Positions 16,790-38,083 of a stretch of DNA of 46,644 bases are shown here, in pieces. This stretch comes from Oscillospiraceae bacterium (GTDB lineage: Bacteria; Bacillota; Clostridia; Oscillospirales; Oscillospiraceae), in contig JAAWQM010000019.1 of the NCBI GenBank assembly GCA_022800525.1, positions 1-46,644 on the forward strand, given 5' to 3'. Below the pieces are notes generated by a model, which searched no databases, was not told the DNA's origin, and was given only the letters and a program-made list of their open reading frames with translations. Position 1 is the stretch's first letter. Each line of letters starts with the position of its first letter. The translations under genes were made by a program, and so were the position numbers.

Positions 16790-16824
16790 TCTCTGTTATC
16801 GGAATATCCTGAAAAAACCGTTTC

Positions 16825-16853
16825 CCCGGCGGCTGGGGCTGCCAGCCGCCGGG
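16825..16853 (+). terminator. intercistronic hairpin between pilin and sortase
   Basis: A perfect 12-bp GC stem (CCCGGCGGCTGG, 16825-16836, complement 16842-16853) with a 5-base loop and no T tract. It probably stabilises the pilin message or partly terminates, giving much pilin and little sortase. Confidence 0.6.
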
Positions 16854-16869
16854 CCCATGAGCCTGACAT

Positions 16870-24019: not shown

Positions 24020-24060
24020 GCCGCTTTCCCCTTTCCCATATTGTCTGGATTTCCCAACTG

Positions 24061-24100
24061 ATAAAAAATCCCCGGCCAGAGGCAGAAAAGCTCTGGCCGG
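24061..24100 (-). terminator. internal terminator/attenuator between rpiB-like and tpi-like genes
   Basis: Minus strand: CCGGCCAGAG-9 bases-CTCTGGCCGG, a 10-bp stem (24100-24072), followed by GGGATTTTTTAT. It has the form of a functional rho-independent terminator inside the operon, so tpi-like expression must come from readthrough or an unseen promoter. Confidence 0.75.
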
Positions 24101-24118
24101 AGAAAAGCGCGGTCCGGT

Positions 24119-24577
24119 TCAATTGCACTCCGGCCGGTGCGACTCCGCCTCATAGCGTTTGATCCGCGCCACCTTCGGCGCAGAGGCGCTGGCAGGATCG
24201 AACTCCAGCCCCAGCCATGTCTCCAGCAGCGTCACCGCCAGCTTCGGCCCCAGGGTAAACGCTCCGAAGCAGGCAATATTGGTGTCATTGCTCAACGCCG
24301 CGCGCTGAGCCGAATAGACATCCGAAATCAAGGCCGCATACGCCCCCCGCACCTTATTGGCAGAAATACTGACGCCAATGCCTGTCCCACAGACCAGCAC
24401 GCCCTTGTCCGCTCTGCCGGACGCCACAAATTCCGCCACCTGGATGGCCGTGCTGGCGTAAATGGGGTCCGGACTGCCAAAATCAACCGTCTCATATCCC
24501 ATCTGCCGGCACCGCTCAATCATAAGCTGCTTGAGTTCTTCCGCATTGGGATCGCAGCCAAACGCTATCTTCTTCAT
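24119..24577 (-). CDS. RpiB/LacAB-family sugar-phosphate isomerase, probably tetrose-phosphate specific
   Basis: 152 residues, as in RpiB. The catalytic Cys63 is in GVLVCGTGIGVSISANK and the C-terminal LSNDTNIACFGAFTLGPKLA is typical. The first phosphate/ring-opening loop, SDHAG in classical RpiB, is here CDPNA, which loses the usual His; this points to a substrate other than ribose-5-phosphate. In erythritol catabolism an RpiB homologue (EryI, DerI) converts D-erythrulose-4-phosphate to D-erythrose-4-phosphate, which fits this operon. The ATG overlaps the dhaK stop by four bases, so the two are coupled. Confidence 0.85.
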   Translation of the reverse strand: MKKIAFGCDPNAEELKQLMIERCRQMGYETVDFGSPDPIYASTAIQVAEFVASGRADKGVLVCGTGIGVSISANKVRGAYAALISDVYSAQRAALSNDTNIACFGAFTLGPKLAVTLLETWLGLEFDPASASAPKVARIKRYEAESHRPECN

Positions 24578-25608
24578 GACGGCATGCTCCTCTGCCCGGC
24601 GTCAGCCTGGAGCCGCTTCTTGGTATAGTAAGGACAAGAGCAGGGCTGGTCATAGTACCTTTTCAGCTCATCATCCACCCGCATAAGCGTGATGGACGCA
24701 CCGGCCATCTCCTGCGTCGTGACCAGGGAATTGACCTCCATATCATGGATACGGATTCCGTCCCGGTCGAGCAGCTGTTTCAGTCTCCGGTTCATGATAC
24801 ACAGCTCCATCAGGGTCGTAGACCCCAGGCCATTGATATAACTGCATACCTCGTCGCCGGCTTTGAGTGCGGAGTCCTCCAGGAGCTGCCGGTACAGCTC
24901 ATCCACCAGATCGTCAGCGGGCATCAGTTTCACACGCTTGACGCCAGGCTCCCCATGGATTCCCAGTCCAAATTCCATCTCGTCCTCCGGCAGTGTGAAA
25001 ATGGGCTCCCTTTCGCCGGGGATCGTTGCGCCGGACAGGCCCACTCCGATGGTATATGTATTTTCATTCGCCTTTTCGGTCACACGGTACGCCTCCTCCA
25101 GGGAAAGGCCCGCGCCGGTAGCCGCGCCTGAGATGCGGATGACAAAGAAATCTCCCGCAATCCCACGGCGGTCATACAGCCTATCCCTTGGAGCGGACGC
25201 GATGTCGTCCCGTACCCGGACGGTCCTGCTCTCAACGCCCGCATCCGCCATAAGCTCAGCCGCCATATCAAAGTTCATGCTGTCCCCTGTATAGTTTCCA
25301 TAGACGAACAGGACGCCTTTTCCCCGCTCCACAGACATTGCCGTCTGATAAATGGTCCCAGGATCAGGGGAGGTGAAGATATTGCCGCAGGCCGCCGCGT
25401 CGCCCAGATTTTCCCCCAGGAAAAATTCAAACATCGGCTCATGCCCGCTGCCTCCGCCAATCACCAGGGCCGTCTTGTCCTTTACATCCCTGACCCTGAT
25501 GCCTGCCGCCTCCTTCAGCAGCTCGTACTGTCCGCCGTAAGCCGCGGCAAAGCCCTCCGCACATTCCCGCACGACGTCGCCGGGCATGTTGATTATTTTT
25601 TTCATCAT
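24574..25608 (-). CDS. dhaK: DhaK-type kinase subunit (K domain)
   Basis: 344 residues. DhaK binds a short ketose covalently through a histidine for phosphorylation by its partner L domain. GGGSGHEPMFEFFLG is the N-terminal substrate loop; the hemiaminal-forming His218 is in GLGIHGEPGVKR, the same number as in E. coli DhaK. YGNYTGDSMNFDMAAE and NGLGSTTLMEL are family hallmarks. I chose ATG 25608 (MMKKIINMP), matching other DhaK N termini; earlier codons overlap the dhaL end. The neighbour is a separate DhaL. No DhaM phosphodonor gene is present in the window, so ATP use, as in LerK-type kinases, is more likely than PTS use (inference). Confidence 0.93.
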   Translation of the reverse strand: MMKKIINMPGDVVRECAEGFAAAYGGQYELLKEAAGIRVRDVKDKTALVIGGGSGHEPMFEFFLGENLGDAAACGNIFTSPDPGTIYQTAMSVERGKGVLFVYGNYTGDSMNFDMAAELMADAGVESRTVRVRDDIASAPRDRLYDRRGIAGDFFVIRISGAATGAGLSLEEAYRVTEKANENTYTIGVGLSGATIPGEREPIFTLPEDEMEFGLGIHGEPGVKRVKLMPADDLVDELYRQLLEDSALKAGDEVCSYINGLGSTTLMELCIMNRRLKQLLDRDGIRIHDMEVNSLVTTQEMAGASITLMRVDDELKRYYDQPCSCPYYTKKRLQADAGQRSMPS

Positions 25609-25622
25609 CTGCTCACTTTCTC

Positions 25623-26261
25623 TCAAGACATGGCCGCAAGGTATGCTCTCATTGCACCGAATATGATCCACACGGAAGTCGCCCCGGCGTCCTGAAAGCC
25701 CAGCGCACGCTCCATCAAGGACTTGGCGCGGCCAAACTTGGCAATCAAATTCTTTGTGGCCTCCACGCCCTCCGCGGCTGCAGCCTCCGCCAGGGACAGC
25801 ATTTCCACAAAATCATCCCCCCCGTAAGTCTCCATCGCCCTGACAGCCGGCTCCAGCGCGTCCACCATCGTCTTGTCGCCGGCAGAAGCCTTGCCCCGGA
25901 TCCTGACAGCCTCCAGGCTGTCAGCCATCAATCCGGCAAAGTCCCGGCAGCCAAGCGCCGGCAGCGGCTCCTTCCCCTTGGTGCCGCCCAGAAACATTGT
26001 ACCGAAGATCACACCGGAAGCGCCCCCCATGCTCATCAGCATAGTCTTCCCCATCTCCTGGAACAGCTCATATACATTGGAGCATGCCTCCATCTTCTCC
26101 AGACGGTCCTTTGCCTTCTGCATCCCAACCGCCATGCCGATCCCATGGTCGCCGTCGCCAATCCTGCTGTCGATCTCCGTCAAAAGGGGCTTGCTCTCAA
26201 TGATTTTTTCCGCACAGGCCAGAAGCATTCCTCTTGCCGCAGCACAGTCCAAAGTAGTCAT
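25623..26261 (-). CDS. dhaL: DhaL-type kinase subunit (L domain)
   Basis: 212 residues, the length of free-standing DhaL. The nucleotide/Mg site is in EIDSRIGDGDHGIGMAVGM, with the aspartates that hold two Mg ions; GGASGVIFGTMFLGG and GKASAGDKTMVDALEPA are the nucleotide loops. It begins two bases after the regulator stop codon and ends 14 bases before dhaK. It supplies the phosphoryl group to the ketose held by DhaK. Whether it uses ATP directly or retains ADP and is recharged by a DhaM is not visible; no dhaM is nearby. Confidence 0.93.
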   Translation of the reverse strand: MTTLDCAAARGMLLACAEKIIESKPLLTEIDSRIGDGDHGIGMAVGMQKAKDRLEKMEACSNVYELFQEMGKTMLMSMGGASGVIFGTMFLGGTKGKEPLPALGCRDFAGLMADSLEAVRIRGKASAGDKTMVDALEPAVRAMETYGGDDFVEMLSLAEAAAAEGVEATKNLIAKFGRAKSLMERALGFQDAGATSVWIIFGAMRAYLAAMS

Positions 26262-26263
26262 TC

Positions 26264-27970
26264 TTATACTCGTTTCCTTTCTTGCTTCCGCTCATTCAGG
26301 CTATATTTGTCAATCCATCTGTAAAGAGTCGCCCGGCTGATTCCCAACGCCTTCGCGATCTCCTGCTTGCTCCCCCCGGACTCCAGCAGCCCCCTCAGCT
26401 CCTGGAGCTGCGCCTCCTGCTCCTCTGCGCCCAGGGAGACATCCACAGCGCATGCAAGGCACCTTCCGCTCTTTCCGGAACGGGCCGGCCTGCCCCGGTG
26501 CTGCATCACCCACACCTCCGCCAGCCTTTGCAGGGAGAGATAGTCCACAGAGAAATTTTTCCGGTACAGCTCCGCCCAGGCAGGATTGCCCAATTCGTTC
26601 GGGCTGCAATGGTATGCCTCCGCAAATTTTTCCACGAAGCAACTCAAATAGTAGTTCACATTGGCCGTATTGTCTCCGATATCGGGGATCAGGATGTAAT
26701 TTTGGGATATCTGACGCAGCAGCTGTTGGGAAAACCGGCTGCGCCTGACCAGATTTTCCAGACTCTCATCCGAGGCCGCAATGATCCGCGCCATCGAGCC
26801 CTGCATCCCGGACAGCTGCTGCTCCGAAATATAAGCCGCCAGGCGTTTCTGGATGTACATGGGCATATGATTGATCATCCAGAGGCAAAGCACGCTGTTT
26901 TTGGAGAGCCTCAGCATCCCTGGGACCTCTCCGCCCACTCCGAACAGCAGCTTCTCCAGCTCCTGCATCTCCCGCCTGCAATCCACCTTGAAAAATGGAG
27001 CATCCCCGGCAGAGGAGGACTTGTGGAGCATCCGGATCAGCCGTTCCGCCTGCGCCTGGTCATGCCCCTCAATGAGCACCGGGAGATTGTTTTTTACAGC
27101 GGTCTTCGCGCGGCGTTTCGCCTCCTGCATATCCTCGCCGGGTCCCCAGAAGCGCTCCATTTCCTCATCGGCAGGATCGCCCGCCCCAAGCTTGAGCGCC
27201 TCCCGGCAGCCGACCCGTTCAAACGCATAGACATACAGCTTCGCGCCATCCTGCGTATCGAGCTTCATGTCCTTGATTGCCGTCAGACGGATCAGTCCGC
27301 AGGCTTCCCCAAAAAACAGACTGTCCTCCCGGAGGATATCCTTCGTCTGTCCGGCCTGCTGGCGCAGCAGGAGCCGGTCCAGATCGCCGCCCACAGCGTC
27401 GTCGATTCCAAAGAAGCCGCAAAACGCTTCATTGCAAAAAACGATCCGCATCTTCTCGTCGGTAACGGCAACCGGGTCCGGGACCGCCCCGAACGCGCGC
27501 ACCGCCCTCTCCCGGAGATCGTTCAGGTACGTTCCCCGCGCATCGCTTTCAATCGCCTTTGCGATCCAAAACGCGATCTGCTCCATCAGCGGCACAATTT
27601 CTTCCGACTTGTTCCCCAGCAGCTCCGGTTGGCTGGGGGGGATCAGCATTGCGATTGCTCCGATGCACTCCGCCTCCGTCAGGATGGGAACGCCGATGAT
27701 GCTGTCAATTGAACAGGAATGAAAGTCTGCGCACGACTGGCACTCGCTGCTCTGTCTCCTGTCCTTGACGATGACAGGCTTGCCTGTGACGATCACGCTG
27801 CCGACGACTGAGTTGACCTGGATATCAATTGGCTGGCGCTCATAATGGAACGTATTGATCAGCTGGTTGAGCCACTTGTCCACAACGATCACACCAACAT
27901 CCATCAGGGCTGTACACGCAGAGGCCAATTGCACCAGCCTGTCCTTATAAGGCAATAATTCAATCTTCAT
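26264..27970 (-). CDS. GAF-PAS-(degenerate AAA+)-Fis regulator of the Dha operon
   Basis: 568 residues. N-terminal GAF-like sensor (about 1-145) with the cluster SSECQSCADFHSCS (CxxC-x5-C), which could bind a metal or Fe-S centre. A PAS domain follows (about 160-270, VPDPVAVTDEKMRIVFCNEA), then an enhancer-binding-protein-like AAA+ domain (about 285-470) that has lost its motifs: LIEGHDQAQAERLIRMLH stands where GESGTGKE is expected, and no GAFTGA loop is seen. A Fis-type helix-turn-helix ends the protein (KQEIAKALGISRATLYRWID). It resembles DhaR/AcoR activators but should not hydrolyse ATP or remodel sigma-54. The operon promoter is sigma-A type, so it probably acts on that form. It is the first gene of its own operon, so autoregulation is likely. 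Confidence 0.9.
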   Translation of the reverse strand: MKIELLPYKDRLVQLASACTALMDVGVIVVDKWLNQLINTFHYERQPIDIQVNSVVGSVIVTGKPVIVKDRRQSSECQSCADFHSCSIDSIIGVPILTEAECIGAIAMLIPPSQPELLGNKSEEIVPLMEQIAFWIAKAIESDARGTYLNDLRERAVRAFGAVPDPVAVTDEKMRIVFCNEAFCGFFGIDDAVGGDLDRLLLRQQAGQTKDILREDSLFFGEACGLIRLTAIKDMKLDTQDGAKLYVYAFERVGCREALKLGAGDPADEEMERFWGPGEDMQEAKRRAKTAVKNNLPVLIEGHDQAQAERLIRMLHKSSSAGDAPFFKVDCRREMQELEKLLFGVGGEVPGMLRLSKNSVLCLWMINHMPMYIQKRLAAYISEQQLSGMQGSMARIIAASDESLENLVRRSRFSQQLLRQISQNYILIPDIGDNTANVNYYLSCFVEKFAEAYHCSPNELGNPAWAELYRKNFSVDYLSLQRLAEVWVMQHRGRPARSGKSGRCLACAVDVSLGAEEQEAQLQELRGLLESGGSKQEIAKALGISRATLYRWIDKYSLNERKQERKRV

Positions 27971-28006
27971 AAATCCCCCTCGATTTCGTCATTTCATTCA
28001 TGATTT

Positions 28007-28062
28007 TGAAATTTCATCCATTTCCTTATTTCAATAGTATCCACAATGAAATGATTTGTCAA
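28007..28062 (-). promoter_or_regulatory. promoter and likely operator of the regulator-dhaLK operon
   Basis: Minus strand TTGACA (28062-28057), 17-base spacer, TACTAT (28039-28034): a strong sigma-A promoter. Repeated TGAAAT/ATTTCA words surround it, including the perfect palindrome TGAAATTTCA (28007-28016) just downstream of the -10 and ATTTCATT within the spacer. These are candidate sites for the operon's regulator. Confidence 0.75.
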
Positions 28063-28125
28063 GCCGAATCCTCACAGGCAAAGCCCATCCATTCGCTGTT
28101 GATACAGGTATTGTGTCCGTACAAT

Positions 28126-29106
28126 TTATTGCAGCTGATCTGCCATCTTACGGATCTGGTCCAGATCCTCCTTCTCCAGGACAAGGTCTGCGGCAAGGGC
28201 TGTCTCTGCGATCTGAGACACCCGTCTTGCGCCGCAGATCACATTGATATCGCCGCCCTGCCCCCGCAGGTAGGCCAGAGCCAGCTGGGACAGCTGGCAG
28301 TTGTACTTTCCGGCAATGCCCTTCAGCTCCTCCACAAATTCCAGCGCCCTGGGGAATTTCTCCGCCGACCACCACGGATCGCCGTCCCGCGCATCTCCTT
28401 CCGGCACCACGTAGTCCTTTGTGACCTTGCCGGTCAGGAGACCGCGCTCCAGCGGCATGTACGCATGGAAGGACATGCCCTTTTCCCGGCACAGCTGGAG
28501 GATGCCGTCCTCCGGTCCGCGGGTCAGCATGCTGTACCGGCCCTGGATAATGTCGATCTCTCCGCAGGCGGTGTAATCCAGGATCTCCTGGGGCGTCATG
28601 TTGGAGGCTCCGATTGCCCGGATCTTCCCCTCCTTCTTGAAGTCCATCAGCAGCCCCACGGTCTCTTCAACGGGCGTCATGAAGGGCGGGCAGCAGGGAT
28701 TATGGGTATAGTAAATGTCGATATAGTCCGTTCCCAGACGGCGCAGGCTGTTCTCCAGCTCAATGCGGATGGTCCGGGCAGACAGGTTGCGGCTGACCCT
28801 GTGACCGTCCTTCACCCAGCGGAAGCTTCCTTCGCCGTCGCCCCACCAAAGTCCGCACTTGGTGGAAATAATCACATCCGAGCGGCGTCCCTTCACCGCT
28901 CTGCCCAGGACCTCCTCGCTGTGGCCAAAGCCGTACACCGGCGCGGTGTCCACCGTATTGATGCCCATTTCAAACGCCTTGTGCAGCGTCCGGATGGACT
29001 CCTCGTCGTCGGAGTTCCTCCACCAGGTGCCGCCGCCGATTCCCATAGCGCCGAAGGTGATCACAGACGAACGAATCCCGGACCTTCCAATTTCCATGTA
29101 CTTCAT
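28126..29106 (-). CDS. aldo/keto reductase
   Basis: 326 residues, full length for the family. The catalytic tetrad is readable: Asp and Tyr in NTVDTAPVYGFGHSEE, Lys in VIISTKCGLW and His in DIYYTHNPCCPP. The nucleotide-binding end (INVICGARRVSQIAETALAA) is typical of NADPH enzymes of the YajO/Tas kind. An AAGGAGG site precedes the ATG. Last gene of the long operon that starts at 37966, 16 bases after the M20 gene, and next to the tetrose-type operon. It could reduce an aldehyde or ketone released from the imported substrate, or interconvert a tetrose and tetritol (inference). Confidence 0.9.
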   Translation of the reverse strand: MKYMEIGRSGIRSSVITFGAMGIGGGTWWRNSDDEESIRTLHKAFEMGINTVDTAPVYGFGHSEEVLGRAVKGRRSDVIISTKCGLWWGDGEGSFRWVKDGHRVSRNLSARTIRIELENSLRRLGTDYIDIYYTHNPCCPPFMTPVEETVGLLMDFKKEGKIRAIGASNMTPQEILDYTACGEIDIIQGRYSMLTRGPEDGILQLCREKGMSFHAYMPLERGLLTGKVTKDYVVPEGDARDGDPWWSAEKFPRALEFVEELKGIAGKYNCQLSQLALAYLRGQGGDINVICGARRVSQIAETALAADLVLEKEDLDQIRKMADQLQ

Positions 29107-29122
29107 GATGTTCCTCCTTTTT

Positions 29123-30298
29123 TCAATGCAATCTGTCGTTGATCCCAGTCAAAACAGCCAGCCAGGCTTCTACGCCGTACCGCAGTCCCGCTTCATTCAG
29201 GAAAAAGCGGCAATGGTGGTGGGGATACTCCACGCCGTCCCGAAGCCCCCGGGTTCCGATCTTAAAGTAGCAGCCTCTTGTCCTTGTCAGATAGCAGCTG
29301 AAGTCCTCTCCCCCCAGTACCGGTTCGTCGGCGGATACCTTCTCCTGGCCGAATTCCTCCTGGAGGATTGACCGCACCGCCTCTGCCGCCGCGCCGTCGT
29401 TGTACACCACGCCATAGCCCTTCTCCAGCCGCACCTCGCATGCCGCTCCGTAAGCCTGCGCAATCCCAGCGGCGATCTGACGGATCCGTGTGGTCACTGT
29501 CTCCTCAAGCTCCTCGTTCAGAATCCGTGCCGTTCCACCCAGAACCACCTCTTCCGGAATGATATTCTTTGCCTGGGATGCCTGGAACGAGGTAATCGTC
29601 ATGACGGCGCTTTTGCATGGGTCAACATTTTTCGCCACAATGCTGTTGAGCGCACAGACGATCTCCGCACCGACCATCACCGTATCAACACACTGATGCG
29701 GGAATCCGCCGTGGCCGCCCTTTCCGCGAATGACGATCTCTATCTCGTAAACCGCCGAGTGGGTCGCTCCGTTTCGCAGCAGGAAGCAGCCGGGTTCGCA
29801 TTCCGCCGCCACATGCGCGCCGAGGATCAGGTCCACGCCGTCCACGACTCCCGCTTCCACCATCTCAGACGCGCCGCCGCCGGAAGCCTCCTCGCAGGGC
29901 TGGAAGATGAACCTGATCTGGCCGGAGACCTCCTCCGGACGCTCCGCCAGAATCTTTGCCGCAGTCAGCAGCATCGCCGTATTGCCGTCATGTCCGCAGG
30001 CGTGCATGACGCCCGGGTTCCGGGATCTGTAGGGCGAATCGTCCGCTTCCTCCACCGGCAGCGCGTCGATATCGCACCGGGCGGCGCAGACCCTGCCCGG
30101 CTTCCCTCCCCGCAGTACAGCCACCACCCCCGTGGGGCAGGGCCGTGATACGGTCAGGTTTGCGCACGCAGACAATTCCTTGTAAATGTAGTCCGATGTA
30201 TGGACCTCCTGGCCGGACACCTCCGGGTACATATGCAGGCGCCGGCGCGCCTCAATGGTCCGGCCCTCCCACTCCAATGCCAATTCCGCACAATTCAC
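29123..30298 (-). CDS. M20D-family amidohydrolase (N-acyl-amino-acid deacylase type)
   Basis: 391 residues. Metal-binding motifs of the hippurate hydrolase/aminoacylase branch are intact: MHACGHDGNTAMLL, FIFQPCEEASGGGASEM and PHHH near the end, with the lid-domain motif IVIRGKGGHGGFPHQCVDTV. Such enzymes remove acyl groups from N-acyl amino acids, including N-acylcysteines in some bacteria. In this operon, with a cysteine desulfidase and an ATC hydrolase-like gene, deacylation or decarbamoylation of a cysteine conjugate is a reasonable guess. The start is GTG 30298 with GGAGGG upstream. Confidence 0.9.
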   Translation of the reverse strand: MNCAELALEWEGRTIEARRRLHMYPEVSGQEVHTSDYIYKELSACANLTVSRPCPTGVVAVLRGGKPGRVCAARCDIDALPVEEADDSPYRSRNPGVMHACGHDGNTAMLLTAAKILAERPEEVSGQIRFIFQPCEEASGGGASEMVEAGVVDGVDLILGAHVAAECEPGCFLLRNGATHSAVYEIEIVIRGKGGHGGFPHQCVDTVMVGAEIVCALNSIVAKNVDPCKSAVMTITSFQASQAKNIIPEEVVLGGTARILNEELEETVTTRIRQIAAGIAQAYGAACEVRLEKGYGVVYNDGAAAEAVRSILQEEFGQEKVSADEPVLGGEDFSCYLTRTRGCYFKIGTRGLRDGVEYPHHHCRFFLNEAGLRYGVEAWLAVLTGINDRLH

Positions 30299-30320
30299 GG
30301 CTTGTCCCTCCGGCAGGCGC

Positions 30321-30698
30321 TCAGGTTGCCTGCTTCTTGGCGTCCAGGCGGAGAACGCCGTCTACTCCCACATTGTTGTCCGCATGCTCCTTGATGATGA
30401 CGATGACCTTGCCCTTCCCCTGATAGCCGGTCACCGCTACGGTGGCCTCGTTCACATTTTTGACCAGCTGCCGCTTCTGGCTGTCCGGCTTCCCAGGCGC
30501 TGTATAGATGAAATAGGTGATCTGATCCGCCGCGCTGGGGCCGTGGCACTCCTCCGCCAGAGAGGGCAGCAGCATCATTGAGCTTACGTTGATATCCAGA
30601 TGAAATGCGTCGCACACGCCCTTCGCCACACCGGCGCACAGCGCCTCCTGCTGTTCCCTGGTCAATTCCAAAGCGGTCACGCCAATAATTGTTGCCAT
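30321..30698 (-). CDS. tautomerase-like protein lacking Pro-1 (paralogue 2)
   Basis: 125 residues made of two beta-alpha-beta units of the 4-oxalocrotonate tautomerase kind: VTALELTREQQEALCAGVAK and, in the second half, YTAPGKPDSQKRQLVKNVN followed by VIVIIKEHADNNVGVDGV. In the family the catalytic base is Pro-1, exposed after Met removal; here residue 2 is Ala. About half the positions match the adjacent 120-residue protein, so the two arose by tandem duplication. It lies between the ABC importer and the M20 gene. It may form a heteromer with its neighbour and act as a binding protein or use another base (inference). Confidence 0.75.
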   Translation of the reverse strand: MATIIGVTALELTREQQEALCAGVAKGVCDAFHLDINVSSMMLLPSLAEECHGPSAADQITYFIYTAPGKPDSQKRQLVKNVNEATVAVTGYQGKGKVIVIIKEHADNNVGVDGVLRLDAKKQAT

Positions 30699-30732
30699 AG
30701 TTGTCTGCTCCTTTCGACCGTCAGTCCCGTCT

Positions 30733-31095
30733 TTACATGTCGCACTTCAAAACGCCGTCCACGCCGACGTTATTGTTTGCGTGTTCCTTGATGATAACGA
30801 TTACCTTGTTTTTCTCCAGAGGGCCTGTCACCTTGACCGTCTCATCATAGATGCTTTTCACCAGCCGGCGCTTCTGATCGTCGGTCTTGTTGGGCGCTGT
30901 GTAGACAAAATAGGTGATCTGCCCTGTCACACTTGCGCCGTGGCACTCAGGCGGAATGACCGGCATAATCATCAGTTCGGTGATTTTGATATCAATATTG
31001 AACGCATCACTGACACCCTTCTCGACGCCTGCACACAGCGCCGTCTTCTGCTCCGCAGTCAAATCAATCGCCGTATACGCTACCATTGTTGCCAT
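30733..31095 (-). CDS. tautomerase-like protein lacking Pro-1 (paralogue 1)
   Basis: 120 residues, same layout as the next gene: unit one YTAIDLTAEQKTALCAGVEK, unit two YTAPNKTDDQKRRLVKSIYD with VIVIIKEHANNNVGVDGV at the end. Ala follows the initiator Met instead of the catalytic Pro. An AAGGAG site precedes the ATG. The conserved PECHG and ITYF(V/I)YTAP segments between the units are shared by both copies and are not part of classical 4-OT enzymes. It is encoded 45 bases after the last permease gene. The fold call rests on the repeated helix pattern; family assignment below that level is open. Confidence 0.75.
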   Translation of the reverse strand: MATMVAYTAIDLTAEQKTALCAGVEKGVSDAFNIDIKITELMIMPVIPPECHGASVTGQITYFVYTAPNKTDDQKRRLVKSIYDETVKVTGPLEKNKVIVIIKEHANNNVGVDGVLKCDM

Positions 31096-31140
31096 TGTTC
31101 TGCACTCCTTGTTATTTATTTTGGTTAAGCATGTTCCGCG

Positions 31141-32124
31141 TCAGGCCGCGGACGGACCGGATTTGCTTCCGGCCTTTGCCGCGCCTGCAGCATAGTGTTT
31201 CGCACTCTTGATCCGGCGTTCTTTCCTTGCAAAGGAGGCCATCGCCACCACCAGAACGCCCACCGTAATGATATAGGGCAGCATGAGCACGAACTGGCTG
31301 GGGATGCCCACAAGCTGCACCCGGGAACCCAGCGCGTCGCACGCGCCGAATATCAGGCAAGCCAGCGACGCCACCACAGGGTTTGCCGCTCCAAAGTGCA
31401 TCGCCGCCATACCCATAAAGCCGCGCCCCTGTACCATGTTCTCCGCGAACATGGTCACGTATCCCAGGGACATGTGCGCGCCGGCCAGACCGCCCAGCGC
31501 TCCCGCAATCAGCAGGGCCTGCACCTTGTAGCCGTCCGCGGTGATGCCGGCCGTCTGGGCGCACATCTCATTGAGCCCTACCGTGCGTAGGCGCAGCCCC
31601 CACACCGTTTTATACAGCATGAACCACAGTACAAATATGAACACCGGGCACAGCAGCTCAAACAGGTTGTAACCATTGAACAGGCTGGTGAAGACCGGAT
31701 TGTCCTGGAAAATGGGAAGGGTCACCGTCGGGATGGGTACCATATCCTTGGAGGTAAAACTCCCGCTGCATCCGAAGACCCGCGGCATCAGGAAGCGGGT
31801 CGCCGCAGTCGCCAGCATGTTGATTGCAATGGCCAGGACGACGATGTTTGCCTTCAGTTTGATGGAGCCGAAGGCCAGGAGCCCGGATACCAGGATGCCA
31901 AACAGGACGCTGACGAGCACCGCCAGGACCCAGCTGCCTGTCAGATAGCTGACGGAGGAGGCGATAAAGCAGCTGAAGAGCATAACGCCCTCCACCGACA
32001 TGTTGAACACATTTGCCTGCTTGCAGACCGAACAGGCCAGACAGGCGTAGATGATCGGGACCGAGCAGCGGATCGCAGCGTGTACCAGCTGGTAGGTAAA
32101 TACTGTCGAGAGCACGTTACCCAT
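31141..32124 (-). CDS. BMP-type ABC transporter permease (YufQ-like)
   Basis: 327 residues with about eight to ten membrane helices. It starts VFTYQLVHAAIRCSVPIIYA, typical of the second permease of nucleoside/simple-sugar importers. The coupling region LRLRTVGLNEMCAQTAGI and GALGGLAGAHMSLGYV are conserved for the family. The start overlaps the upstream permease gene by eight bases. It forms a heterodimeric channel with that permease, powered by the ATPase at 33222. The 3' neighbour is the tautomerase-like pair. Confidence 0.92.
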   Translation of the reverse strand: MGNVLSTVFTYQLVHAAIRCSVPIIYACLACSVCKQANVFNMSVEGVMLFSCFIASSVSYLTGSWVLAVLVSVLFGILVSGLLAFGSIKLKANIVVLAIAINMLATAATRFLMPRVFGCSGSFTSKDMVPIPTVTLPIFQDNPVFTSLFNGYNLFELLCPVFIFVLWFMLYKTVWGLRLRTVGLNEMCAQTAGITADGYKVQALLIAGALGGLAGAHMSLGYVTMFAENMVQGRGFMGMAAMHFGAANPVVASLACLIFGACDALGSRVQLVGIPSQFVLMLPYIITVGVLVVAMASFARKERRIKSAKHYAAGAAKAGSKSGPSAA

Positions 32125-33229
32125 TTGCAGATTCCTCCTTCCTCTGACGCATGGATGTCCGTCCGATGATCTTGAATATGCCCTTGCGGAAGGAATCGTA
32201 GAGGCCGTCCATCGTGACCATCATGATGATTACCGCCGTGAAACAGTCGATGAAGGCCCGGGATATCCCGCAGGCACGCTCTACGCCGTAGGCCCCCGCC
32301 TGGAGCATGGCCAGCGCAAACGAGGAGACCGGCAGCAAAAGCAGGTTGTTGGCGACCAGCCGGGAAGCCAGGAGTCCGTTGAAGGTAGCGCCGGTGGCGA
32401 ATTCATCCACAAAGCGGCCGTAGAGTCCCGCCACCTCCATACCGCCGGCCAGGCCGGCCACCATGCCGCTGGCCAGTACGGTCAGGATCATGGTGCGCTT
32501 CTGATCAATGCCGATATACTCCGCAAAGCGGGGATTCTGGCCAATCGCTTTCGTCCGGTATCCAATGGGCGTGCGGTAAATGATAAACACGATCAGCAAA
32601 AAGACCGCTGCCGCAATGAAAAGTCCCACATTGGCCCGAGACGGCATGAGGATCTTGGGAAGCTGTACCTGTTCGCACAGCTGCGGCGTTTGGGGGATCG
32701 AGGTCTTTGCGGACCAGACATAGTAAATCGCGTAGGTGCAGAAATAGGTCGCCACATAGTTCAGCAGCAGCGTGACGCAGATCTCATTGACGTTCCACTT
32801 TGCCTTCAAAACAGCGGGCAGTACGCCCCACAAGCCGCCAACCAGCATGGCGCTCACCACGCAGAGCGGGATATAGATATATCCCGGAAGATTGGGAAAT
32901 TGATAGCCGATGACCGCATAGGTCAGCGCTCCCAGATAGAGGGAGCCCTCCAGTCCGAGGTTGAAGAAGCCCACCTTCGCACCCAGGTTGAACGCGGTCC
33001 CCAGCAGAAGGATCGTCGTGAACTTTTCCAGCGTCGTACCGAAATTGAGCTTGCCAACCAGGGAGCCTCTGAACAGGTTCAGGAGCATTTCAAATGGGTT
33101 ATAGCCAAAAAGCGCCGCTATCACCCCCGCAATGACAAAGGCGCAGGCCAGCGCGAAGAGAAACCGTATCACATAGCTGTTATCCCCCGCCTTTGTCTTT
33201 CTCCGCCGCAGCACAGCCGGACTACTCAT
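32117..33229 (-). CDS. BMP-type ABC transporter permease (YufP-like)
   Basis: 370 residues with about ten membrane helices after a short basic N terminus. KVGFFNLGLEGSLYLGALTY and the coupling loop IGYRTKAIGQNPRFAEYIGI are typical of the first permease in BMP systems; AGGMEVAGLYGRF follows. It overlaps the ATPase gene by eight bases and the second permease by eight, so stoichiometry is kept by translational coupling. Confidence 0.92.
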   Translation of the reverse strand: MSSPAVLRRRKTKAGDNSYVIRFLFALACAFVIAGVIAALFGYNPFEMLLNLFRGSLVGKLNFGTTLEKFTTILLLGTAFNLGAKVGFFNLGLEGSLYLGALTYAVIGYQFPNLPGYIYIPLCVVSAMLVGGLWGVLPAVLKAKWNVNEICVTLLLNYVATYFCTYAIYYVWSAKTSIPQTPQLCEQVQLPKILMPSRANVGLFIAAAVFLLIVFIIYRTPIGYRTKAIGQNPRFAEYIGIDQKRTMILTVLASGMVAGLAGGMEVAGLYGRFVDEFATGATFNGLLASRLVANNLLLLPVSSFALAMLQAGAYGVERACGISRAFIDCFTAVIIMMVTMDGLYDSFRKGIFKIIGRTSMRQRKEESANG

Positions 33230-34745
33230 CAGCCTTCCCTCCTGTCATCAGAAGTCCAAGTTCCATCTCATCCACATTGCCGTCATTGATGATCTCTCCT
33301 GTGATCCTGCCCTCATAGAGAACAATGATGCGGTCCGCCAGAGAGAGGATCTCATCCAGATCCGCCGAGATCAGCAGGACGCCCGCGCCGGAGTCCGTCG
33401 CGCTGCTGATCAGGCTGCGGATGGACTCCACAGACCCGATATCCACGCCCCGCGTCGGCTGGTTCGCCAGGAGGACCTTCCCGTTCAGATCCAGCTCCCG
33501 CGCCACAATGACCTTCTGCGCGTTGCCGCCGGACAGGGACGCAACCATGACGTCGCCGTTTGCCGGCCGGATGTCAAACTTTTTGATCCGGCGGTTGGCA
33601 TTTTCAATCACAGCGGACTCCCGGATCATGCCGCCTGTGGTGTAGGGCTTGTCCCCGATCTCATAAGCGGCAAGATTGTACTTGATGTCCAGCGCCTTGT
33701 TCAGGCCGTGGATATTCCGGTCTTCCGGGATATGGGTCAGCCCGGCAGCCCGGACCTGGCCCGGCCGGCGGTTGGTGATATCCGTCCCGCATATGGTGAT
33801 CTGTCCGCCGTCAGCCTTCGTGAAGCCTGCCAGCACGCTGGCCAGCTCGGACTGCCCGTTCCCGTCCACTCCGGCAACGCCCAGAATCTCTCCTCCATGT
33901 ACCTCAAAGGAAATGCCCTTCAGCTTGGACAGCTCCCGCTCAGAGGGCGCGGCCAGGTCCGTCACCTTCAGGACCACCTCGCTGGTAATGGCGGATTGAT
34001 GCTTGATGTCACAAAACACCTCCCGACCAACCATCATTTTGGCCAGCTCAGGGATCGAAGCATCGTTCTTGCTGACCGTCCCTATATACCTGCCTGCGCG
34101 CATGACCGTAACGCGGTCGCTGATCTGCATGACCTCCTTCAGCTTGTGGGAGATGAAGACAATGGACCTGCCGTCCTTTTTCATCATGCTGAGAATCTCG
34201 AAGAGCTTCTCGCTCTCCTGAGGCGTCAGGACCGCCGTCGGCTCATCCAGGATCAGGATGCGCGCCCCTCTGTAAAGAGCCTTGATGATCTCCACGCGCT
34301 GCGCCTCGCCGACAGAAACACTGGAGACTTTCTTGTCCAGCTGGACGTTCATGTGGTATGTTTCGATATAGTGTCTGATCTTCTCTGCCGCGGCATCCCT
34401 GTCAATGAGGAACCGGCGCTTTCTGGGTTCACTTCCTATAATGATGTTCTCCAGCACCGTCATTTCCTTGGTGAGCATAAACTCCTGATGCACCATGCCG
34501 ATCTCAAGATCAATCGCATCATAGGTGTTATAGCCTTCCGGCACGTCCCGGCCGTTCACCCGGATCTGTCCCGCGTCCCGTTCATAGAGGCCATAAAGCA
34601 TTTTCATCATGGTAGACTTTCCAGCGCCGTTTTCACCGATCAAGGAGTGGATTTCCCCCTCGTTCAGGTCAAACTGTCCATTATCTACAGCCTGTACATA
34701 TTGAAAGCGCTTCATGATGCCCTGCATTTCAACAATTTTAGCCAT
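33222..34745 (-). CDS. BMP-type ABC transporter ATPase, two nucleotide-binding domains
   Basis: 507 residues with two fused ABC domains. Domain 1: Walker A GENGAGKST, signature-like VSVGEAQRVEI, Walker B ILILDEPTAVL, H-loop FISHKLKE. Domain 2 has a modified Walker A (GVDGNGQSE), LSGGNAQKV signature and VLLANQPTRGVDIGS, the usual asymmetry of this family. The ATG at 34745 (MAKIVEMQGI) is where family similarity begins; the preceding 14 codons would fall in the hairpin region. A hairpin at 34772-34807 separates it from the binding-protein gene. Confidence 0.94.
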   Translation of the reverse strand: MAKIVEMQGIMKRFQYVQAVDNGQFDLNEGEIHSLIGENGAGKSTMMKMLYGLYERDAGQIRVNGRDVPEGYNTYDAIDLEIGMVHQEFMLTKEMTVLENIIIGSEPRKRRFLIDRDAAAEKIRHYIETYHMNVQLDKKVSSVSVGEAQRVEIIKALYRGARILILDEPTAVLTPQESEKLFEILSMMKKDGRSIVFISHKLKEVMQISDRVTVMRAGRYIGTVSKNDASIPELAKMMVGREVFCDIKHQSAITSEVVLKVTDLAAPSERELSKLKGISFEVHGGEILGVAGVDGNGQSELASVLAGFTKADGGQITICGTDITNRRPGQVRAAGLTHIPEDRNIHGLNKALDIKYNLAAYEIGDKPYTTGGMIRESAVIENANRRIKKFDIRPANGDVMVASLSGGNAQKVIVARELDLNGKVLLANQPTRGVDIGSVESIRSLISSATDSGAGVLLISADLDEILSLADRIIVLYEGRITGEIINDGNVDEMELGLLMTGGKADE

Positions 34746-34771
34746 ACTACCAGCCTTTCTGCCTCTGGTTT

Positions 34772-34807
34772 GATTTGGGAAGGGCACCTAAACGCCCTTC
34801 CCAAATC
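34772..34807 (-). terminator. intercistronic hairpin between binding protein and ATPase genes
   Basis: A perfect 14-bp stem (GATTTGGGAAGGGC, 34772-34785, complement 34794-34807) with an 8-base loop and no T tract. Such hairpins after a binding-protein gene usually protect its message, so it is made in excess over the membrane subunits. Confidence 0.7.
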
Positions 34808-34825
34808 GCTTCCCGCGCCGGCAAA

Positions 34826-36016
34826 TCATGTGTGGATACTGTAGGTGCTGCGGTCATAAGGTCTGAAATCAGGATATTCGTCAACAATAATGGTCCCATC
34901 GGAAACTTCCCGCATATAGTCCTTCAGTGCGTCCATGATGTCCGTGGGATAGCGGTCCTCGCCGATGGCCTCCTTCCATTCATTTCCATTGGTAAGGCCC
35001 ATACCGCCATTGGTAAAGGTGCACAGGTAGACTGAATCACCGTCCCAGGCACCTGTACGGAAGTCGTAGATAACCTGCAATACGGGGGCGGAGAGGTCGC
35101 GGACAAAGGAAGTGCAGACCACGCCGTCTCCAGCCGCGTCATAGTTGCCGTCATGGCCGAACAGATAGGCCTGTCCCTCCTGGCAGGCTTCAATCGCGCC
35201 GTAGACGCCGTTGCCCGCCATCGCGTACATCACATCGCAGCCGTTTTCAATCACGCTCAGGCACCACTCCTTCATTCCCATCGGGTCCGTAAAGCTGTCG
35301 CCGTATACGGTGATCACTTCAATCTCGGGGTCAACAGCGGCCACGCCCTGCACAAAGCCCAGGTATCCGTCAAGGCCGAAGGGCGTGTCCTTCCCGCACA
35401 CATAGCCCACCTTTTTGTCCGCGTTGATGTTGGGGATCTCCGTCCTGGTCGTCAGCATGGCGCAGAATACGCCGGCGATGAAGCAGCCCTCATTGCAGTT
35501 GCCTGCGGCGCTGACGACGTTATCCATACCGACAATGGAATTGTCAATGGAGACGAACTTCTGGTCAGGGTACTGCTCGGCCACCTTAATCATCGTGTCC
35601 TTCATCTGTGCGGTGAAGCCCAGGATCAGGTCGTATCCGCCATTGGCCGCGGCGATCAGGTTCGGCTCCCAGTCGGAGGTGGTCTGCGCCTCCAGCAGGT
35701 CGATGGTTACCCCGGGATCGTCCTTGAATTTCGCCTGAAAAGCTTCCACAACATTGTCGTGGGCTGGATTGCTGCCCAGCGTGGCGGCCAGGCAAACGCA
35801 GATCTTGCAATCGGCCAGGTCCGCCGTATCATCCTGACTGAAGTTGGTGCTGGCGCCGTCCACGGTGATCTCCGCAGAGCTGTCGATATCTGTGATCTTC
35901 TGCTGGCCGTTGTTCGTGTTATCCTGGTTGTTTCCGCCGCACGCGGCCAGAACAAGGATCATTGCAAGTATCAACAAGGCCGAAAGAAATTTCTTCGCTG
36001 TCTTCGCTTTGTTCAT
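34826..36016 (-). CDS. BMP-family substrate-binding lipoprotein
   Basis: 396 residues. Lipoprotein signal with lipobox LVLAACGG, an Asn/Gln-rich tether, then the BMP fold: KICVCLAATLGSNPAHDNVV, GGYDLILGFTAQMKDTMIKV, PDQKFVSIDNSIVGMDNVVS, VGYVCGKDTPFGLDGYLGF. BMP proteins (PnrA, YufN) mostly bind nucleosides, but family members have other ligands. I chose ATG 36016 (MNKAKTAKK) with GGAGG upstream rather than the ATG ten codons earlier. Three cysteines in the mature part are unusual for a binding protein. Context with an ATC hydrolase-like gene and a cysteine desulfidase suggests a cysteine-containing or heterocyclic ligand (inference). Confidence 0.93.
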   Translation of the reverse strand: MNKAKTAKKFLSALLILAMILVLAACGGNNQDNTNNGQQKITDIDSSAEITVDGASTNFSQDDTADLADCKICVCLAATLGSNPAHDNVVEAFQAKFKDDPGVTIDLLEAQTTSDWEPNLIAAANGGYDLILGFTAQMKDTMIKVAEQYPDQKFVSIDNSIVGMDNVVSAAGNCNEGCFIAGVFCAMLTTRTEIPNINADKKVGYVCGKDTPFGLDGYLGFVQGVAAVDPEIEVITVYGDSFTDPMGMKEWCLSVIENGCDVMYAMAGNGVYGAIEACQEGQAYLFGHDGNYDAAGDGVVCTSFVRDLSAPVLQVIYDFRTGAWDGDSVYLCTFTNGGMGLTNGNEWKEAIGEDRYPTDIMDALKDYMREVSDGTIIVDEYPDFRPYDRSTYSIHT

Positions 36017-36106
36017 GTTGAATCCTCCATTTGTATTTATTTGCATGGCGTTTCCGCCATTGCATACGGAGCGGCGCCTGTAAAGGCCCTTTGCGTGAAT
36101 GCAGGC

Positions 36107-36634
36107 TCAGGCGTTATCCTTCTCCACCAGGAATTTGCAGTATGTACAGCCGGGCTCTGTGCTCGTACACAGCCACTTGCCCTTCAGGCCCAGGCTGCTG
36201 CAGTGACCAAAGTCTCCGTAGCTGGCAATCTCGCAAAGATAGGCTACCTCCTGCTGGGAGAGTCCCATCTGCTCCCAGCCCTGGACCAGCGCGCACTTGC
36301 CGTCCATGAGCAGCAGCGCGTGATCGCCGTCCTGCTCCAGACAGGAAATGCCGATTGCCGGTGTCGCGCTGACGCCGTTGGTCGATACCAGGAAATCCGC
36401 CATCACCTTCGGACTGCCCATCTGACAGCCCTCGAACATGGGATTTTTTGCCTTGAATTCGCCATAGGCGAACAGTGCCTTCTTTCCATACTCGTCAAAG
36501 AGCTCCCTTGGCATCACCTTGTAAAAAAATCCAAGGTAGCGGGCGCGGTCCATCATGGCGTCCTCAATCATTCTGCGGACCTCGTCATAGGTATATGTGT
36601 CCTTCTTGTTGAATTTCATCTCTTGCTCAGTCAT
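36107..36634 (-). CDS. L-2-aminothiazoline-4-carboxylate hydrolase-like protein
   Basis: 175 residues. The C-terminal pattern WEQMGLSQQEVAYLCEIASY, then GLKGKWLCTSTEPGCTYCKF, matches the ATC hydrolase family (Trp-x2-Gly, Leu-Cys-Glu, and a Gly-x-x-x-Cys-x-Phe end). The N-terminal RYLGFFYKVMPRELFDEYGK helix is also typical. Known ATC hydrolases open the thiazoline ring to N-carbamoyl-L-cysteine; most relatives are uncharacterised, so the activity is not certain. An excellent GGAGG site precedes ATG 36634. It lies directly after the cysteine desulfidase gene and before the importer, which supports a role in releasing cysteine from a conjugate. It has nine cysteines, several in the conserved end. 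Confidence 0.68.
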   Translation of the reverse strand: MTEQEMKFNKKDTYTYDEVRRMIEDAMMDRARYLGFFYKVMPRELFDEYGKKALFAYGEFKAKNPMFEGCQMGSPKVMADFLVSTNGVSATPAIGISCLEQDGDHALLLMDGKCALVQGWEQMGLSQQEVAYLCEIASYGDFGHCSSLGLKGKWLCTSTEPGCTYCKFLVEKDNA

Positions 36635-36688
36635 CTTTCTTCCTCCTTCGTTTTGAAGCAACTGCTTGTTTCGCATGCTGCAGCGCAT

Positions 36689-37966
36689 TTACTTGCCGAT
36701 CATTATGTTCAGAATCTCATTGTCCGCCTGACGCATCCCCTTGGACGCCAGTCTCCCAATACTGCTGATCGTTTCCTCGACATTTTCCTTGACGATTCCC
36801 TCTCCATCGCGAAAGCCTCTGTTCCTCTGTGCCAGATCATAGCTCAGCAGCGCGCAGTTCAAGGCGGTCGCAATCTTGCAGGCGCAGCTTGATTTCGCTC
36901 CATCACAGACCATGCCGCCTACCGAAGCAATGCAATTGACAACGGTCTGGGAAATCACATCAAGGTCCCCGCCGTCCATGTAGGCAATGCCGCAGGCGGC
37001 CCCGGCTGCTGCGCTGACCGCGCCGCAGAAGGCAGACAGCTTCCCGATTCCTGTTTTCTGGTGGATCGCCGTCAGATTTGCCGCGCACAGACCCCTCAAA
37101 AGCGTTTCGCGGCTGTATCCCTTTTCCTGGGCGTATAAAGCCACAGGGACTGCAATCGTCATTCCCTGGTTGCCGCTGCCGCTGTTGATGACCACCGGCA
37201 TCGCACAGCCATTCATCCGGGCATCGCTGCCCGCAGCCGCAGCTGCGCACAGTCTTGTATAGAGATCGCCGCCCCGCTCCATCAGGGACGGCCCTACCGC
37301 CGCGCCCCAGGGGGCAGCCAGCCCCTCGCGGGATATGGCCAGATTGTACCTGATCTGCCGCTCCAGAAGCTCCTCCACCTCTGACAGGTCCACGGTGTCC
37401 GCATATTCCAGGATTGCCTTCAGGTTCAGCGCCTGCCGCTTTCTCTGATCGTCTTCATGCACGGCCTCCTCCAGCTCGTGGAGGACCCGTCCGTTTTTTA
37501 TGACGGTGCCCAGCCTGGTATGGCTGTCAATGATTTCGACAGAGACACGGTCTGTATCCGTCTCCGCGTCTATGACGATATGCAAAGCATGGGAGGTATC
37601 CAAGAGGTTGATCTCTACGATTTTCTGTTTCAGCAGCCGGTTCAGCTCCGCCTTATGGGCCTGCGTCACCCGGGAAAGGACCTCCATGCCCAGACTGGCG
37701 TCGCCACCGGCCGCTCCGATCAGGACGGCCGCCTCGATTCCTGTCCGTCCATCCGTCTGTGGGACAGTAACGGCCTTCGCATTTTTGATGATGTTGCCGG
37801 AACAGCTGATGGAAAAATGATCCGCTCTCCGCCCCAGCAGCTTTGTGGTCTGCGCCGCACAGTATGCAATCGCTATCGGCTCTGTACATCCGGTAGCCAT
37901 CTGCAATTCCTCCCGAAGGATCTCTGTAAACACCTCCCCCCGCTGTTTTGCGCTTAATTGAGACAT
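36689..37966 (-). CDS. L-cysteine desulfidase family protein (CyuA/UPF0597)
   Basis: 425 residues. The family uses a [4Fe-4S] cluster to split L-cysteine into pyruvate, ammonia and sulfide; related members may act on serine. Cys27 in MATGCTEPIAIAY corresponds to the substrate-binding cysteine region, SGNIIKNAKAV and INSGSGNQGMTIAVPV are strongly conserved, and MVCDGAKSSCACKIA carries cluster ligands. I prefer ATG 37966 (MSQLSAKQ), seven bases after GGGGTG; the ATG five codons earlier has its ribosome binding site too close. First gene of the ten-gene leftward operon; promoter at 38084-38112. Confidence 0.9.
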   Translation of the reverse strand: MSQLSAKQRGEVFTEILREELQMATGCTEPIAIAYCAAQTTKLLGRRADHFSISCSGNIIKNAKAVTVPQTDGRTGIEAAVLIGAAGGDASLGMEVLSRVTQAHKAELNRLLKQKIVEINLLDTSHALHIVIDAETDTDRVSVEIIDSHTRLGTVIKNGRVLHELEEAVHEDDQRKRQALNLKAILEYADTVDLSEVEELLERQIRYNLAISREGLAAPWGAAVGPSLMERGGDLYTRLCAAAAAGSDARMNGCAMPVVINSGSGNQGMTIAVPVALYAQEKGYSRETLLRGLCAANLTAIHQKTGIGKLSAFCGAVSAAAGAACGIAYMDGGDLDVISQTVVNCIASVGGMVCDGAKSSCACKIATALNCALLSYDLAQRNRGFRDGEGIVKENVEETISSIGRLASKGMRQADNEILNIMIGK

Positions 37967-38083
37967 GATAAAGCACCCCATATTCCTTGTTATTTGCCTC
38001 TCGATGACACAAAAAGCAGCCTTAGTTTCTCATTCTGATTCGCCTTTCAATTTCATTGAGACATAACTTGTGGCCACGCTCAA

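Follow-up and report, generated by a model that had tools for sequence, protein, structure and literature searches.

The 46,644 bases of Oscillospiraceae DNA analyzed here (hereafter, the window) are one whole contig of a 2.87-Mb genome in 112 contigs, and they raise the question of which compound is imported and broken down by a gene cluster that joins a cysteine desulfidase to an ABC importer. An earlier note, made from the letters alone, described ten leftward, closely packed genes and proposed that a thiazoline, thiazolidine, or N-acyl cysteine enters through the importer and is then opened, deacylated, and desulfurized. Open reading frames (ORFs), Pfam, and NCBIfam confirmed the ten genes, all of them open, leftward, and spaced at -8 to +60 bp from the desulfidase to the aldo/keto reductase (AKR). 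However, the ketose-kinase third of the locus (regulator to TIM) had been overlooked. Following a gap of 155 bp behind the AKR, the leftward run resumes with a regulator, DhaL, DhaK, an RpiB-type gene, and a TIM-type gene (23237-27970), so that five genes beyond the AKR join the ten originally listed in a fifteen-gene run on the minus strand (23237-37981). The observation is therefore confirmed, with a locus half as long again as first reported; the boundary first given, 37966, falls on the second ATG in the desulfidase gene, whose ORF opens at 37981. Our tentative answer, which we consider possible but somewhat short of an even chance, is that the run has two arms and serves to take up and catabolize a short ketose conjugated to cysteine or to a cysteine-like amino acid.

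The desulfidase call of the earlier note held, as the protein belongs to the SDH_alpha/CyuA family and keeps the CyuA catalytic set. The sole solved structures that it matched were those of MmCyuA (two M. maripaludis sequences, E 2e-24 for 9he0 and 8e-24). Excerpts of one report give Cys287, Cys329, and Cys336 as the cluster ligands of MmCyuA, and Cys23 and Glu25 as essential (PMC12647591). In our alignment, the numbering of which takes into account that the crystal construct carries two extra residues, C319/C360/C367 of the window protein align with the three ligands and C32/E34 with the catalytic dyad. With all five named residues kept, the window desulfidase is, judged from this alignment, CyuA-type. 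An importer adjoins the desulfidase gene, as in E. coli cyuPA, where CyuP imports cysteine (excerpts of PMC9040844); in contrast to that system, the window has an ABC importer, hydrolases, and ketose kinases around the desulfidase.

The neighboring protein, called ATC hydrolase-like in the earlier note, had no match in Pfam, even at E 10, or in NCBIfam, so that call must have stemmed from pattern. Yet when the window protein and its relative in genome G165 (58% identity, likewise without a Pfam ATC_hydrolase match) were made into a profile and compared with ten relatives, hhalign gave 98.7% (E 1.8e-16), and the five relatives scanned were all above the Pfam ATC_hydrolase (PF14196) cut-off. Residues C132, W138, C152, A155, D159, G180, and C184 were invariant in twelve sequences of the family. 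By this profile comparison, the window protein is a remote member of the ATC_hydrolase family, and hydrolysis of aminothiazoline carboxylate is a putative activity taken from the family name. Orthologs occur in G256 (82%) and G165 (58%); these two copies came from searches other than that of 197 genomes of the order, in which the window-type protein was found in its own genome only. A PDB search returned no credible relative, three of its four weak matches being designed proteins.

The pairing of ATC and desulfidase genes recurs in the family. An ATC profile, with seeds chosen by similarity and not by neighborhood, matched in 15 of 200 family genomes with one gene each, and desulfidase genes at E <= 1e-100 occurred in 115 of 300 genomes. 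Six of the 15 ATC genes (G000, G045, G071, G133, G150, and G180) lay within 10 kb of a desulfidase gene, a limit set after the positions were known, against ~0.05 expected (Poisson 1.6e-11); without the window the count was 5/14 (Poisson 1.3e-9). This expectation takes a genome size of 2.3 Mb, assumes that the 200-genome ATC set is the first 200 of the desulfidase listing, and uses 73 desulfidase genes (handles up to G199, counted twice by eye), which is a lower bound since many genomes had only five candidates scored. DhaK-type genes numbered 26, in 23 of the 200 genomes. Three of the 15 ATC genes were within 12 kb of one (10.4 kb in G000, 2.3-2.4 kb in G071 and G183) against 0.02 expected, this limit too having been set afterwards, wide enough to take in the window; with the window left out, 2/14 were within 2.5 kb. 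Linkage of the desulfidase and ATC genes beyond chance is well supported.

The overlooked genes form the second arm. L-erythrulose kinase and the L-erythrulose-1-phosphate and D-erythrulose-4-phosphate isomerases make up the erythritol/erythrulose pathway to D-erythrose-4-phosphate. Among solved structures, the TIM-type protein matched TIM (1b9b, 201.1 bits) and then L-erythrulose-1-phosphate isomerase (11ef, 199.5 bits). It shares with 11ef one extra residue after the YEPVWAIG segment and a GRSAW loop, which reads GGAAL or GGASL in the two housekeeping-type copies compared and is also found in the TIM-type proteins of G256 and G090. It is an extra copy, a separate TIM being present on contig C86 of the same genome. 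The RpiB-type protein scored 132.9 bits (cut-off 135) with PRK05571, ribose-5-phosphate isomerase B, and 121 (cut-off 240) with D-erythrulose-4-phosphate isomerase. DhaL was above its own cut-off, and the DhaK-type protein was below that of TIGR02363 (326.7 bits, cut-off 406), which the DhaK of a G256 operon with a LIV-type importer (L089) passes (486/406). The GIHGEPG of the window DhaK aligns with GIHSEPG of 3ct4, the best solved DhaK. Because of these TIM-type, RpiB-type, and DhaL/DhaK scores, the sugar arm is read as a candidate tetrulose route to erythrose-4-phosphate. Like the erythritol/erythrulose pathway, it has DhaK/DhaL, a TIM-type protein similar to 11ef, and an RpiB-type protein together; unlike that pathway, it is joined to sulfur genes, its DhaK and RpiB fall below the model cut-offs, and family scans recognized no polyol dehydrogenase in the window run. 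The regulator is 43% identical to the copy in G256 (L020) and has homologs of 22-25% in LIV-DhaK operons. Divergent from the desulfidase gene, a fused DhaK-DhaL lies at 38396-40162 on the plus strand (PRK14479, 714 bits, cut-off 492).

Gene order in other genomes joins the two arms repeatedly. In a second genus (G256), the order ATC-BMP-ATPase-permeases-tautomerase-M20-AKR-regulator-DhaL-DhaK-RpiB-TIM is kept, with 43% (regulator) to 83% (RpiB) identity and one tautomerase gene; the operon lies on two contigs (L156, L020), both broken inside the ATPase gene. In a second type of operon, found in G071, G256, and G269, the order is desulfidase-LIV importer (five genes)-DhaK-DhaL-regulator-ATC. 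In G071 and G269 these genes stand in a single run; our 400-bp rule breaks the run of G256, where the binding protein and first permease are ~0.5 kb apart. This type is probably also present in G183, split over two contigs with the desulfidase on the other contig. A third type (G045) reads LIV-ATC-(unrecognized domain plus second ATC domain)-desulfidase-M20, a gene order close to the open/deacylate/desulfurize set that had been predicted. A fourth (G230, G269) has Fe-dependent alcohol dehydrogenase-ATC-permease-M20 dipeptidase-M24 peptidase-desulfidase (names by eye). Furthermore, G150 has ATC-LIV-SDR-desulfidase, and G133 and G180 have ATC and desulfidase genes near importers that are, by eye, of the dipeptide type. 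In G165, one contig (L102) carries AKR-FGGY kinase-desulfidase-L-ribulose-5-phosphate 3-epimerase and another (L132) LIV-FGGY kinase-ASRT protein-L-rhamnose isomerase-AKR-window-type ATC; the desulfidase thus sits within a pentulose-type operon, and an L-rhamnose-isomerase operon ends with the ATC gene. The gene caller missed the ATC genes of L051 and L134. In L051, the G045 locus, the fused protein between ATC and desulfidase (5329-7164) carries its ATC_hydrolase domain behind an unrecognized N-terminal domain with, by eye, a Rossmann-like start. A P5CR-like nature of this domain was suspected by eye; Pfam and PDB gave no match, and it is not claimed.

Does the kinase association follow desulfidase descent? 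The desulfidase tree held 44 proteins, i.e., the window's, 38 from 40 loci fetched by similarity, four found through ATC genes (L051, L052, L130, L131), and the second copy of the window genome (L057). The duplicate L055 (of L088) was dropped, L094 and L122 are absent as the gene caller left their desulfidase genes uncalled, and only the last 440 residues of proteins with long N-termini were kept. The window desulfidase fell in a supported set of five that also includes the desulfidases from two LIV-DhaKL-ATC operons. All six rows labeled as linked to a ketose or pentulose kinase, one of them (L095, G183) through an inferred contig join only, fell within one supported set of 20; L057 was in the other supported set, of 24, with two rows near an ATC gene and none labeled kinase-linked. 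Given the supported branches, the kinase label must have changed at least twice; it is neither clearly clustered on the tree nor proof of several gains. Importer type differed by desulfidase clade (10/19 versus 2/24, Fisher p 0.002), a rough comparison from by-eye counts with L105 left out. One further locus (L099, 4398-19073), in which a desulfidase adjoins a BMP importer, an M24 peptidase, and a C-S lyase of the PatB type (446.5 bits, cut-off 340), is another operon for sulfur compounds.

Several observations weigh against a cluster for one cysteine-ketose conjugate. Only six of 38 similarity-chosen desulfidase loci (L088, L089, L092, L097, L098, L102) have an ATC or sugar-kinase gene in the cluster, some of the other loci ending at contig edges. 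For nine of the 15 ATC genes, no desulfidase gene lies nearby; seven of these nine genomes lack a desulfidase match at E <= 1e-100 (G014, G070, G130, G147, G148, G191, G193; G070 and G147 are weak ATC matches), and in the remaining two, G165 has the genes on different contigs and the desulfidase gene of G183 ends another contig. The HCPL-type motif of typical ATC members reads KCAL in the window protein, the single-sequence model of which was unusable (pLDDT 38.8). On the tree, kinase linkage showed no significant clustering (three changes against a mean of 4.4 after shuffling, with 65 of 500 shuffles reaching as low a count). The G256 operon has no desulfidase in the 8.8 kb before its ATC gene, and the single desulfidase that this genome yielded at E <= 1e-100, with scores for five of ten candidates, is in another operon. 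The late choice of the 10- and 12-kb limits counts on the same side, as do a LIV operon and two Leucobacter loci described below. Finally, a sigma-70-like site at 28062-28034 (minus strand) in the 155-bp gap, a consensus match only, may split transcription between the two arms and give a possible second transcript; the promoter scan returned 11 sites of this kind, versus 6.9 +/- 3.2 after shuffling, which is weak evidence.

That site and gap would suit an alternative in which the pathway of the earlier note stands alone, acting on a thiazoline, thiazolidine, or N-acyl cysteine, and the neighboring kinase and isomerase genes belong to a separate operon for tetruloses, controlled by a promoter and regulator of its own. 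Further in its favor, no sugar kinase is among the genes seen on the 9.6-kb contig of G045, and in G090 a similar kinase/RpiB/TIM module adjoins an importer of the dipeptide type, the 20 kb read there containing no desulfidase. However, both halves are adjacent in G256 at 43-83% identity, and G071 and G269 each have desulfidase, ATC, regulator, and DhaKL in a single run, with the same order in G256 and in two-contig G183, so we regard separate operons as rather unlikely. The G090 locus (L128, 5533-14721) also includes, in a row with its kinases and RpiB, fructose-6-phosphate aldolase, an erythrulose-phosphate-isomerase-like TIM, and a transketolase-like gene, and its two kinases are close together, as are DhaKL and the fused DhaK-DhaL in the window.

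A different amino acid would be indicated by G122, a genome of the window's own genus, in which a LIV-DhaK-DhaL run has a serine hydroxymethyltransferase (SHMT) inside (399.8/335 bits) and no desulfidase match was found in the 10-kb contig (L142, 213-9512, which opens with a ROK regulator). SHMT takes the desulfidase's position, so that an enzyme that splits amino acids stays with the kinase. Since a LIV importer and DhaK/DhaL thus also occur without a desulfidase, importer and kinase alone do not point to cysteine. The desulfidase homolog and its neighbors might then act on another amino acid, with a triose or tetrose joined through carbon or oxygen and split by a lyase or aldolase to a small amino acid or pyruvate plus a ketose; the G122 binding protein, of the branched-chain amino-acid family but below the curated cut-off (76.8/477 bits), would suit this idea. 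On the other side, the window protein keeps the Cys/Glu dyad, which excerpts of PMC12647591 describe as unique to CyuA versus serine dehydratases, and the ATC family name implies a sulfur ring, and we consider this explanation unlikely. The G122 run also counts in favor of the preferred reading of a cysteine-ketose conjugate, under which SHMT in place of the desulfidase would fit a wider notion of amino-acid/ketose conjugates.

The importer was rightly described as a complete BMP-type system, with a BMP protein, a double ATPase, and two BPD_transp_2 permeases. Orthologs in G256 are 74% identical for the BMP protein and, in L020, 75 and 80% for permeases 1 and 2. The nearest solved structure of the BMP protein is TmpC (2fqw, 3e-19). 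In PnrA/BMP binding proteins, Asp-x-Gly-Phe/Trp-Asn is what we take to be the nucleoside-contacting motif; two other aligned BMP proteins keep it, while the region reads GSNPAHDN in the window and GSNPPHDN in G256. Nucleoside import was set aside as the first reading, given this difference and that no nucleoside gene was seen in the run. Import of B6 was likewise rejected, with all four parts below the NCBIfam cut-offs (57/400, 437/670 for the ATPase, 140/400, and 115/465 bits). In its component families and double ATPase, the window system resembles nucleoside importers of the PnrA/TmpC type and the 'B6 ABC transporter' of NCBIfam, but it differs in the replaced nucleoside motif and in scores far below the B6 cut-offs.

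Between importer and sugar arm lie the two tautomerase-like proteins, the M20 amidohydrolase, and the AKR, and all these family assignments were correct (Tautomerase domain PF01361 in both of the pair, TIGR01891, and PF00248). The model of tautomerase-fold protein b (pLDDT 66.7, moderate) gave a Foldseek match to fused 4-oxalocrotonate tautomerase (4-OT; 6vvr, 1.7e-6), and from domain matches and this model the window proteins are predicted to have the 4-OT superfamily fold. Excerpts of PMC6389900 name an N-terminal proline as the catalytic group of 4-OT. None of eight aligned tautomerase-fold proteins has Pro after Met1 (Ala in six, the window's a and b included, and Val in two). The gene is patchy, occurring in 4 of 300 family genomes, its own included; in G206 (by Pfam) and G078 (by eye) it stands 3' of a family-5 solute-binding protein gene. 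Its use as a widespread marker was rejected after searches found its own and one weak match in 391 genomes of the class, only the center genome among 246 genomes of the Leucobacter class, and three loci in a genome-contig scan with two short exact patterns. Plasmid-borne relatives were likewise not found, the near search giving only 47-base matches in 12 Sinorhizobium records and protein searches with two tautomerase proteins giving none.

The M20 protein scored 19 bits with TIGR01879 (hydantoinase/carbamoylase, cut-off 204) and is not of the carbamoylase type. In Pseudomonas, 2-aminothiazoline-4-carboxylate is converted to cysteine and then to pyruvate, sulfide, and ammonia, according to excerpts of PMC10821248, and the window is like this route in combining an ATC-family hydrolase, an amide hydrolase, and cysteine breakdown. 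However, the M20 family does not reproduce the Pseudomonas-type passage through N-carbamoylcysteine, which we rejected, and the importer and sugar arm are extra. The nearest curated model for the AKR is the methylglyoxal reductase YdjG (NF049922), at 327 bits below its cut-off of 550. This would fit a role in carbonyl defense, in which AKR, tautomerase, kinase, and isomerases clear reactive ketoses or dicarbonyls, ATC protein and desulfidase recycle cysteine adducts, and the importer scavenges; since a dedicated ABC importer in the run and three importer types in related loci fit nutrition better, we find such a role very improbable.

Two Leucobacter genomes carry a Met-type importer, a tautomerase-fold protein, an AKR, and an M20 gene consecutively (L022, 688-5958; L023, 7236-12485; the tautomerase-fold protein is again non-proline). 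The AKRs are 50-52% identical to the window's, and the window ATC, desulfidase, and kinase proteins had no match in the two loci. Orthology of the M20 proteins was rejected, as 34-38% identity is no better than that of G078 paralogs and the link is by family only. This partial gene set, like the patchy tautomerase gene, would be expected if the window were a mosaic of catabolic genes collected by transfer in a genome patch, with no common pathway. Against this, a thirteen-gene order is kept in a second genus and the ATC-desulfidase linkage recurs, and we judge a mosaic quite unlikely.

Overall, the earlier interpretation is partly supported. The CyuA residues, the recurrent desulfidase-ATC linkage behind different importers, and the G045 gene set favor its open/deacylate/desulfurize pathway, but the overlooked kinase genes, the G256 operon without an adjacent desulfidase, the type of M20 protein, and the Leucobacter loci, in which tautomerase, AKR, and M20 go together without desulfidase or ATC, do not. 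Reducing sugars and cysteine form a ring, 2-(polyhydroxyalkyl)-thiazolidine-4-carboxylate, and such cysteine-sugar thiazolidines form in cooked food and from ascorbate breakdown. Because a variable sugar arm stands beside a recurring ATC-desulfidase core, a cysteine-sugar adduct is our leading candidate, this ring is the most likely kind of substrate, and the sugar-cysteine thiazolidine now looks best among the candidates that the earlier note named. The sequences themselves show the gene set, the CyuA residues, the ATC-family homology, the conserved gene order, and the connection of desulfidase and ATC genes with ketose or pentulose kinases in other operons. What the substrate is, in which order the steps run, and what M20, tautomerase, and AKR do, we infer as follows. 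The BMP-type importer would take up the conjugate, and the ATC-family protein, perhaps with the M20 amidohydrolase, would open it to cysteine and sugar. The CyuA-type enzyme would convert cysteine to sulfide, ammonia, and pyruvate, while the DhaK/DhaL kinase would phosphorylate the ketose (C3-C4) and the TIM-like and RpiB-like isomerases would turn the product into D-erythrose-4-phosphate; the tautomerase-fold proteins and AKR may act on carbonyl intermediates.

More broadly, Oscillospiraceae might possess a modular operon family for amino-acid/sugar conjugates, above all cysteine-sugar thiazolidines, that constitutes an undescribed source of gut sulfide, although we hold this wider view to be doubtful. 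It would combine a sulfur core (ATC-family ring-opening protein and CyuA) with exchangeable importers (of the BMP, LIV, or dipeptide type) and exchangeable sugar arms (kinases for erythrulose, dihydroxyacetone, rhamnulose, or pentuloses). Among the matches listed in a search of titles and abstract openings in open-licence PubMed Central, a desulfidase/ATC/ketose-kinase combination was not described, which is weak evidence of absence. If both arms serve one substrate, relatives of gut Firmicutes could turn sulfur-sugar conjugates, possibly dietary, into sulfide and central sugar phosphates. This would add a sulfide source other than sulfate, taurine, or free cysteine and give the ATC-family proteins of Oscillospiraceae a function, and the recurrent neighborhood offers a rule for finding further such operons. 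What makes the locus interesting is that an enzyme of the sulfide-releasing kind is found joined to ketose kinases again and again, which poses a testable question and is not an established pathway.

Table. Genes of the fifteen-gene run in the window, in leftward order
Feature	Coordinates	Strand	Evidence
CyuA-type [4Fe-4S] L-cysteine desulfidase (predicted)	36689..37981 (start 37981 or 37966)	-	PF03313, 202 bits
Divergent ATC_hydrolase-family protein (remote)	36107..36688 (probable start ~36634, judged from relatives)	-	hhalign 98.7%
BMP-family substrate-binding lipoprotein	34826..36046	-	PF02608, 117.7 bits
ABC ATPase, two nucleotide-binding domains	33222..34787	-	PF00005, two stretches
ABC permease 1	32117..33229	-	PF02653 (BPD_transp_2)
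ABC permease 2	31141..32124	-	PF02653 (BPD_transp_2)
Fused-4-OT-like tautomerase-fold protein a	30733..31095	-	PF01361, 41.7 bits
Fused-4-OT-like tautomerase-fold protein b	30321..30698	-	PF01361, 38 bits
M20 amidohydrolase	29123..30298	-	TIGR01891, 336.8 bits (cut-off 153.75)
Aldo/keto reductase (AKR)	28126..29106	-	PF00248
GAF-PAS-sigma54-type-HTH regulator	26264..27970	-	Pfam
DhaL-type kinase subunit	25623..26261	-	TIGR02365, 166.8 bits (cut-off 138.3)
DhaK-type kinase subunit, divergent subfamily	24574..25671	-	PF02733
RpiB-type sugar-phosphate isomerase	24119..24577	-	PF02502
TIM-type isomerase resembling L-erythrulose-1-phosphate isomerase	23237..24019	-	match to PDB 11ef

Elsewhere in the window, 9764-19640 on the plus strand appears, by eye from ORF translations, to be a Gram-positive pilus/surface-protein locus. 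By the same reading, it encodes a signal peptidase, pilin-like proteins with LPxTG-type ends, two sortase-like proteins, and a protein of 1520 residues that has numerous Cys/His repeats and ends in an LPxTG-like sequence.

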